From the NCBI GenBank assembly GCA_947650365.1, contig OX393552.1, positions 50,332,373-50,396,372 on the forward strand: 64,000 bases of DNA, in the 5' to 3' direction. Below, piece after piece: positions 46,501 to 49,500 of the stretch (the stretch's first letter is position 1; each line of letters starts with the position of its first letter). The DNA comes from Chamaelirium japonicum (taxonomy: Eukaryota > Streptophyta > Magnoliopsida > Liliales > Melanthiaceae). A program made the position numbers and the translations under genes. The notes below the pieces were generated by a model that did not search any database, was not told the origin of the DNA, and saw nothing but the letters and a program-made list of their open reading frames with translations.

Positions 46501-49500
46501 CAATAATATGCCAATTCTTTATATATATATATAGAGAGAGAGAGTAGTGATACATTACGGCCGGGTAACGTGCGGCTTAATGTGCGGCCACCCCCTTCCG
46601 GGGTATTTTTGGATTTTTTTTTTTTTGGGATTGATCACCCACCCTTAGATAGCACACACAAAAAATTTCAACTCGATCCAAGACCTATAGGCCGTCCAAA
46701 TGTGATCGACTTTTATCGGTCGTTCATTTTTGTCGTCATTTTGATCAACACATTTGGACGGTCTACAGGTCTTGGATCGAGCTGAAATTTTTTGTGCGCG
46801 CTATCCAAAGGTGGGTGATCAATCCCCCCAAAAAAAAATTTCCAAAAATACCCCGGAAGGGGGTGCCGCACGTTACCGGCCGCAATGTATATATATAGAA
46901 ATGCTATAGTGCGGCATGCGGTAAGTGCGACACCGCACCGCTGTCGTCTGATGTATCGCTGCGTGCATCGTATGCACGTAGCGCGTGCATCAGACGGCTG
47001 CGGTGCGGTGCCGCACTTACCGCATGCCGCAGCATAGCATGCCCCTATATATATATATATATATATATATATATATATATATATATATATATATATATAG
47101 GGGGATGCTTACTGCTTAGGTGCGGTCCACGGTCAGCAACCGTCCGATGCACCACTCCATGCATCCCCATAGGGTCAGGATCAGATGACCTAGCAAAATT
47201 TGACCCAGCAAATAACCCAGCACCCTTTGAGGATCCTAGAGGTTTTAGAATGGGTTGATTTTTTGTAGACATGTTGTCTATGATATGTTGATCATCCTCA
47301 CAAAAAATCAGCCAATTCTAAAACCTCTAGGTGCATCAAATGAGATCTTCAAATCAACGGTTAAAATTGACAGTCAAAAACCGTTGATTTGAAGAGCGCA
47401 TTTGATGCACCTAGAGGTTTTAGAATGGGCTGATTTTTTGTGAGGATGATCAACATACCATAGACAACATGTCTACAAAAAATCAGCCCATTCTATAACC
47501 TCTAAGTGCATCAAAGGGTGCTTGGTTATTAATGGGTCAAAATTTGCTGGGTCGTCCGATCCTGACCCATATATATATATATATATATATATATATATAT
47601 ATATATATATATATATATATATATATATATATATATATATATATATATATATATATATATATATAGGGGCATGCTATAATGCGGTATGCGGTACGTGCGG
47701 CACTGCATTGCAGTCGTCTGATGCACGCATTGCATGCATGCGATGCACGCAGCGGTGCATCAGACGGCTGCGGTGCGATGCCGCATTATAGCATGCCCAT
47801 ATATATATATATATATATATATATATATATATATATATATATATATATATATATATATATATATATATATATATATATATATATATATATATATATATAT
47901 ATATATAGGACCGATCCAGTGAGAAATCCCTTACTTGCGAAACCCCCCTAGAAGTTTCAGAATTTGATGAAACTTGGTAGGCATGCTACCTATGCCATGT
48001 TGATCATCCTCACAAAATTTCATCAAATTCTAAAACTTCTAGTGGCATCAAATGTTAGAAGATTTACCGACCGGTCATAAAAACCGTTAACTTGATCATC
48101 AAATTTGATACCCCTAGAAGTTTTAGAATTTGATAAAATTTTGTGAGGATGATCAACATGTCATAGGTAGCATGTCTACCAAGTTTCATCAAATTCTGAA
48201 ACCTCTAGGGGGGTTTCGCACAAGGTTTCGCAAATAAGGGGTTTCTCACTGGATCGGCCCTCTATATATATATATATATATATATATATATATATATATA
48301 TATATATATATATATATATAGGGGATATTAGGTTGAGTTGTGAGTTGTCAATTTAGAAAGTGAGTTGTGCTCACTTTGACCGCCCTAGAAGTTTTAGAAT
48401 TTGATAAAATTTGATGAGGGTGTTGTCTAGGATAAGATGATCATCCTCAACAATTTTTATCTAATTCCAAAACGTCTAGGGTCATCAAATGGTTGAAGTA
48501 AAATATGTCGTCCGCAGTCATCGTTAAAATCTACAGATTTTGCTTCGATCATTTGAACCACCTAGAAGTTTTGAAATTTGATGAAAATTGATGAGAATGA
48601 TCATCTTACCCTAGACAACACCCTCACCAAATTTCATCAAATTTTAAAACTTTTAGGGGGTCAAAATGAGTGCATCTCACTTTCCCCTCCGGCAGATCAC
48701 AGCTCACTATAACATTCCTCTCTCTCTCTCTCTCTTTTTATATATATATATATATATATATATATATATATATATATATATATATATATATCTTAACGTA
48801 TATCCGTGACTTTTTTTTTTTTTTGAATTTCTAATAACGGATATTTCGTAGCCATATCCAACACGTATCCGGCCGCGTGTCCAGTATGGTTACTCGGGGC
48901 CCGTAGGAGTATTCGTGCTTCCTAGATCACACTTCACCATCCTAGATAGGCATGCTCGATGTGAATCACTTAGTCACGAAATGACTGTGATGGGTCCAAG
49001 TAGGAGGTTCCTGTTTGGTTCCAAGCAGTGGTTATCATTCTTGAATTATGGGATTTTTGCATGTAACCCTTGGCAACTAGATTAATTGTGTATTAACCCT
49101 TGGAAACTTTTTATTTGCACATCGACCCCTAAAAACTAGGTTACTTGTGCAAATCAACCCCTTAGGTTAACAGGCGTCTTGTTGGGAGGAATATTCCTGG
49201 TATAATCAGGGTTTACGCTAGTTAACTTGAGAGGTTGATTTACATAGGCAATCTAGTTTTCAGTGGTCAGTATGTAAATATATGAAGTTTGTTGGGGGTA
49301 AATTATTTGTTTTCAGACTTTACTAACTCTCCTTTTATATTGGTTACTGAGCCAGTATGGTGGTATCACAAAATTTCCGGAGGACATGCTGCCGGAACTC
49401 TATCATTCTTACTATGGGTTTTCTGCATTGAGCTTGCTGGAGGAGCCAGGCCTCGTACCGCTCTGCGCCGAACTGGGGGTGACTGCTTTAGATGATGTTG

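Follow-up and report, generated by a model that had tools for sequence, protein, structure and literature searches.

The window (the whole stretch of 64,000 bp analysed here) holds copia-type and LINE-type elements. At 46.5–48.8 kb, a series of small elements forms an array with (TA)n runs between neighbours (Table 1). Elements C, E and F of this array are high-copy, interrelated, microsatellite-flanked MITE-like elements. No overlap with open reading frames of at least 100 aa was observed for C, E, F and G in the window. In the searched 1.52-Gb assembly, apparently that of a plant to judge from the copia-type and LINE-type elements and from the literature cited below, only 40 of the 3521 (E), 2809 (C) and 5599 (F) first-look candidates were scored, and the counts given below are samples biased towards query-like copies. 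The best matches of C, among the 40 scored out of 2809, were 97–100% identical across nearly the whole query.

Table 1. Palindromic elements of the window and their parts, in window coordinates.
Feature	Position	Strand	Remarks
Element A (family P)	46544..46875	.	simple palindrome; distant kin of the four-arm core, with loops still recognisable and hardly any inner arms left
Element C, four-arm palindromic, MITE-like	47172..47568	.	ends GGGTCAGG..CCTGACCC; self inverted repeat 89%, both halves inverted repeats
C arm 1	47236..47266	+	
C loop 1	47267..47299	.	TTGATCATCC side facing the centre
C arm 2	47300..47330	-	
C centre	47331..47410	.	AACGGTT at 47356, AACCGTT at 47379
C arm 3	47411..47441	+	
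C loop 2	47442..47474	.	
C arm 4	47475..47505	-	
Element D (family O)	47665..47798	.	simple palindrome in the C/E/F array, not four-arm
Element E, four-arm	47908..48260	.	ends GGACCGATCC..GGATCGGCCC
E arm 1	47948..47978	+	
E arm 2	48012..48042	-	
E arm 3	48114..48144	+	
E arm 4	48178..48208	-	
Element F, four-arm	48321..48717	.	diverged member of its family
F arm 1	48385..48415	+	
F arm 2	48449..48479	-	
F arm 3	48562..48592	+	
F arm 4	48626..48656	-	
Element G, four-arm relative	62475..62862	.	loops flipped, inner arms decayed
Second F-family element, four-arm	62994..63394	.	

Self-comparison revealed one long inverted repeat per element (89% over 397 columns in C, 82% over 369 in E and 80% over 330 in F, where it ended about 35 bp before the element ends). 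Each half was again an inverted repeat, with 71–78% identity over 101–122 bp. Four arms of approximately 31 bp followed one another in each element, always in the order + - + -; no arm match with a score above 20 appeared in 200 composition shuffles of window positions 45001–50000. The loops of C, E and F all contained GATGATCA-type sequence. The nested inverted repeats, the fourfold alternating motif and the common loop sequence had been described in a first-pass annotation of this DNA and were recovered here. That annotation had also given all three elements a centre made of AACGGTT and AACCGTT. The exact pair was present in C only; E had a single AACCGTT at position 48082 and F neither heptamer. 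The four-arm range 47171..48718 held for C, E and F but not for element D inside it, which is a simple palindrome, as is element B of the same family. Folding of single strands, proposed as a check, gave E an energy of −146.8 kcal/mol (z of −28 against 100 shuffles, ssDNA). With DNA parameters the full hairpin and the two half-hairpins reached −182 versus −89 kcal/mol in C, −147 versus −54 in E and −113 versus −67 in F. Element A matched the Rfam family MIR8562 over window positions 46618–46838 with 75 bits, below the gathering score of 211, and a relation of A to MIR8562 as a MITE-derived hairpin is possible. MicroRNA precursors were discarded for the interval 46400–49000, where none of the 98 Rfam matches up to an E-value of 1 reached its own gathering score.

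The family set was drawn from 20 loci of 6–9.5 kb around E copies and from the window, and further copies were added later. The larger set excluded loci L001–L008 (overlapping the window and L009–L015), L029 (the window copy) and L034 (97–100% identical to L033 along most of its sequence). Families C, E, F, G, H, J and M have in common a core of about 270 bp with 62–84% identity between seeds, and their ends did not align; the F–G and G–H seed alignments covered only about 95 bp. As the annotation had stated, C, E and F have different ends, but their kept layout is partly due to common descent, since this core is homologous and 66–75% identical between the three seeds. Families I, K, N, O and P were present in the same loci. 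H and K have matching ends (loci concerned: L016:7766-8165, L010:4958-5581 and L040:562-960). The H core at L040:562-960 lies between a third kind of ends, GGGATGCTGCCTATCAAAGCAGC, and adjoins a second, internally deleted copy. A candidate F core with exchanged ends (L046:3131-3395) was rejected: it begins directly at a TA run and continues beyond the fetched sequence, so that it is only incomplete.

Co-change of paired positions was counted in 104 copies of six families (E 25, C 30, F 33, H 9, G 3 and J 4), each covering more than 80% of its query. Pairs that were non-complementary in the family majority were not counted, family M (two copies) was excluded, and both tandem-duplicated H copies of L019 were retained. 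Over the full-length palindrome, 186 of the 1038 changed cells were double changes and 168 of these were complementary, compared to 38 under a column-shuffle null which leaves the relatedness among copies in place. The excess was visible in all segments: ends (61 versus 15), arms (47 versus 8), loops (34 versus 7) and centre (26 versus 7). Taken separately, E and C had no excess at the centre. C/G deamination was rejected as the source of the complementary doubles, as the excess persisted without C/G transitions (121 versus 22). Reversed copy orientation was dismissed by reasoning, for it would yield non-complementary doubles. In the unrelated palindrome N no coupling was detected (2 complementary doubles versus 2.8 expected in 11 copies), and the coupling process is therefore not universal; O (33 versus 18) and P (19 versus 7.6) showed some.

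The nested level behaved differently. When only the arms were considered, full-length pairs had matching double changes in 47 of 280 changed cells, inner pairs in 15 of 270 and direct pairs (arms 1–3 and 2–4, which cannot pair) in 11 of 278. The outer (full-length) pairs differed in this respect from the inner pairs with p = 3.8e-5 and from the direct pairs with p = 5.7e-7; these values became 0.022 and 0.0014, respectively, without two block-swapped C copies. The 15 inner complementary doubles, chiefly in H (8) and F (6), exceeded the column-shuffle null of 6.1, but the direct control also reached 11. Among 14 F copies, full-length cells changed on both sides numbered 14 versus 4.1 in shuffles (0/500 shuffles), and inner ones 5 versus 2.4, a value reached in 28 of 500 shuffles. 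In the same copies no shuffle out of 500 reached the paired percentage of the full-length cells or that of the inner cells (89.9% versus 89.0%). At different loci, two C copies had inner arms mismatched at 7–8 of 31 bases, and elements with such arms presumably still moved. Within families the nested level is hardly maintained, while the whole-length palindrome co-changes; the two symmetries are thus separable here.

The complementary doubles were clustered in tracts: 174 label changes were counted along 31 copies, compared to 214 ± 9 in shuffles, none of which (0/2000) was as low. In 2 of 30 C copies (L021:6291-6686 and L043:740-1135) arms 1 and 4 contained a TTGATGAAAATTGGT block and arms 2 and 3 the C-type block. 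The outer arms of these two copies are E/F-like, and the uniform C type may have preceded or followed this state. The orientation of the loops was reversed between C, E, F and H on one side and G, J, M and P on the other. Flipped-loop z values lay between 5.6 and 8.1 for each of the eight pairs that involve G or J and were weaker with M and P (lowest 1.0 for E–P, 1.9 for E–M). The centres matched in most family pairs, weakly for F–G and H–G. Of 117 quartets of arms, 96 had both loops inward, 13 both outward, 5 were uncalled on at least one side and 3 were mixed; the mixed ones bridge adjacent elements.

Four arms were also found outside this group. Element I (L010:3964-4460, one full copy) is four-arm and had no match to C, E or F at an E-value of 1e-3. 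The near-axis palindrome (position 317 of 624) of element K (L010:4958-5581, one full copy), itself a simple palindrome, is matched by both inner palindromes of I, at positions 196 and 290 of 497. Element I thus carries a K-type near-axis palindrome on either side of its centre. Six arms were present in L045:808-1383, a palindrome whose axis falls in the loop of the middle unit and whose spacers match four-arm centres. Taken together with its terminal (TA)n (about 28 bp on either side), it reached 92.6% palindromy across 633 columns. A second six-arm element, L033:2225-2778, reached only 70% and has direct repeats as spacers, which suits tandem expansion better than an axis shift. A damaged six-arm relative lies in L030. 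The six-arm loops (L045:912-944 and others) are near-palindromic, e.g., GAGGATGATCAAC..GTTGATCATCCTC, and the four-arm loops asymmetric. In L019, N, H and a two-arm E/H-like piece form a block that occurs twice in tandem (1881-2690 and 2777-3588) and produces six consecutive alternating arms by adjacency.

Of the derived states shared by at least two copies of E, C, F or H, 94 of 233 were accompanied by their complementary partner state, as were 79 of 463 singletons (E 23/130, C 2/94, F 26/140, H 28/99), although with so few copies sampled a singleton may turn out to be shared once the whole family is considered. In a young F subfamily of 20 copies with 0.7% divergence, the 53 changed pairs included no doubles, hence its resident copies do not correct themselves. 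The majority sequence of this subfamily was only 92% palindromic, hence an imperfect palindrome can amplify. The pattern points to coupling that arises in source lineages and not in resident copies. The restriction is not clean, because singletons of E, F and H are coupled too.

We propose, with moderate confidence, that the nested layout is a by-product, or history, of repeated re-making of the palindrome by half-copying (template switching) and not a required shape. In this model, C, E and F, palindromic MITE-like elements residing in (TA)n, are presumably mobilised by a transposase from elsewhere. In source lineages, one half would be copied onto the other by foldback or template-switch DNA synthesis, or by an equivalent conversion, which would renew the symmetry, keep the full-length palindrome matched and carry whole sequence blocks into both halves. 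A hairpin crossed by such a switch would have its loop inverted. An off-axis switch would duplicate the old hairpin on either side of the new centre, taking two arms to four and four to six, and the inner arms would drift between episodes. A polymerase switching templates is the probable agent; we suppose that it acts in source elements at about the time of transposition and that simple elements gave rise to nested ones. The first-pass annotation had named strand exchange or hairpin replication among its possible structural requirements. For the full-length palindrome such copying is indirectly supported by the coupled changes, the tracts and the loop inversion; as a constraint on the nested fold it is not. 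The inner hairpins count against half-copying, as they would be expected to switch templates too and show little recent coupling. Our confidence is moderate because the counts involve no tree-based event mapping and cover only a small fraction of the family members. A wider formulation is put forward more tentatively: the palindrome may be re-made from one half during reproduction, off-axis remakes leaving the former hairpin as an inner unit, so that the number, orientation and identity of the inner arms would record past axis shifts (2, 4 or 6 arms), with ends exchangeable around a self-copied core. To our knowledge, the persistence of palindromy in long palindromic MITEs is usually left unexplained. 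If half-copying is confirmed, foldback elements with modular repeats would be explained without a function for the fold, and palindrome maintenance would become testable from sequence alone.

Recombination or gene conversion between different elements could also move arm blocks and ends and cause most of the concerted change, which we regard as possible but doubtful. The exchanged ends (those of H matching K, and the H core between other ends in L040) and the E/F-like outer arms of the two unusual C copies agree with it. However, a single continuous tract cannot swap arms 1 and 4 yet spare arms 2 and 3, and the loop inversion in both halves is left unexplained. Selection might act on the full-length hairpin, through transposase recognition of both ends or a useful RNA hairpin and with no copying mechanism. 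The strong coupling across the element, with none among the resident young F copies, speaks for such selection. It is nevertheless an unlikely explanation in view of the imperfect palindrome amplified in the young F subfamily, the coupling of the loops and the occurrence of the changes in tracts.

The majority sequences of the 31-bp arms bear on the two remaining explanations. Inner mismatch was 3% in C and F, 8% in H, 13% in E, 23% in G, 27% in M (one copy) and 29% in J (two copies). In P the outer two arms were hardly recognisable and the inner arms almost lost. Full-length mismatch averaged 7%, and the same arm differed by 24% between families. All four arms differed between C and F at 8 of 31 columns (0.23 expected, or 2.3 with the outer pairs locked, 0/2000) and between C and E at 5 columns. 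Six of the eight C/F columns fell within one 13-base stretch (columns 17–29), so these are not eight independent events. Plain inheritance, with a single ancient inverted duplication making the four arms and only decay since, is already disfavoured and appears improbable to us. The loops, and for most family pairs the centres, are homologous across families, and G, J and M do resemble decayed versions. On the other hand, the arms of C and F are 29% apart between the families and the inner arms within each only 3%, therefore the four arms changed in concert once C and F had separated; the six-arm relatives and element I further indicate that the layout was not a single event.

Selection for the nested fold itself (a cruciform, a two-hairpin form or paired transposase sites) could have kept the four arms alike, and the retention of the layout in C, E, F and H, the C/F differences beyond what the full-length palindrome alone would give, the inner doubles above the shuffle null and the inner pairing percentage of F lend it something; it is nonetheless very unlikely, given inner arms that barely exceed the direct control, the inner mismatch of G, J and M, C copies with two arm types at two loci, a full hairpin far more stable than two half-hairpins, and C/F columns so grouped that they resemble block replacement more than site-by-site compensation. 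Selection on inner cruciforms was likewise rejected on the direct-arm control and the counts in the 14 F copies, in spite of the F pairing percentage. The structural requirement for nested folding suggested by the first-pass annotation was thus not upheld, and the free decay of inner arms which it had named as evidence against constraint was largely found (G, J and M decayed and P nearly devoid of inner arms); six-arm relatives exist as well.

Parts of this picture have precedents, and half-copying, the reading that we prefer, can be set beside them. MULE MITEs targeted to (TA)n and lying in clusters or arrays are already known (PMC4486113, PMC5907723, PMC8449440). Foldbacks of four segments that lie in TA repeats are on record for MuTAnT, a Mutator-like element of Medicago truncatula, where the Figure 1 legend mentions four similar segments in the self dot-plot of a foldback (PMC4486113). 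Judged by description and not by sequence, MuTAnT resembles C, E and F in its (TA)n flanks, GGGG/CCCC ends and foldback structure with long TIRs (mostly 200–300 bp in MuTAnT). A mudrA-like partner is known for MuTAnT, and the portions of that article considered here do not mention six-arm forms, loop inversion or exchanged ends (PMC4486113). SaTar of guayule and rice is similar to the present array in its small TIR elements between microsatellites and non-nested mixed arrays; its main text does not contain the string "palindrom" or mention nested palindromes (PMC5907723). The pineapple Ac-mMITEs are high-copy, (TA)n-associated and clustered like C, E and F, and a four-arm structure goes unmentioned in the sections of their description used here (PMC8449440). 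MULEs with multiple long TIRs share duplicated terminal modules, but their extra TIRs are tandem, whereas the units of C, E and F alternate in orientation across the whole element (PMC3310237). In the Foldback-like Galileo of Drosophila, TIR length and structure also vary between copies; it belongs to the P superfamily with a known transposase, and the four-arm layout is absent from the relevant portions of its description (PMC4168063).

Template switching between inverted-repeat arms is reported to cause homogenisation of arms and inversion of spacers (PMC8604942, PMC8794818), both common to the present families. Here, homogenisation in tracts concerns the full-length arms only, and spacer inversion lies between two groups of families. 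The published cases are short inverted repeats in yeast genes and rRNA stems, and the word "transposable" is absent from both main texts (PMC8604942, PMC8794818). At the level of titles and opening lines of abstracts, no description of six-arm MITEs or axis shifts was found. The combination seen here (mainly full-length co-change, two-sided block differences, inverted loops, six-arm forms and exchanged ends) was not encountered in the portions of the related literature cited above.

By resemblance, C, E and F may belong to the MULEs and are most like the MuTAnT/SaTar type. G-rich/C-rich ends with long TIRs or foldback structure are present. TA flanked both sides of 69 of the 117 full-length copies of families E, C, F, G, H, J, N, O and P, and a microsatellite at least one side of 113. 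The elements abut at microsatellites in mixed arrays, as at 46.5–48.8 kb of the window, with up to 11 microsatellite-delimited intervals in the 9.5-kb locus L013. A search for target-site duplications of 8–11 bp at copies outside microsatellites returned only TA-rich or within-element matches. Among the 117 elements of the window and fetched loci, the non-TA flanks were nearly always mirror-symmetric: GA was located on the left 18 times and CT on the right 19 times, and the reverse placement was seen for a single CT and for no GA; CA occurred once on each side. GA on the left was combined with CT on the right in eight elements, and GA/GA or CT/CT in none. Because insertion into (GA)n would give an identical unit on both sides, the non-TA runs may grow from the element ends or travel with them.
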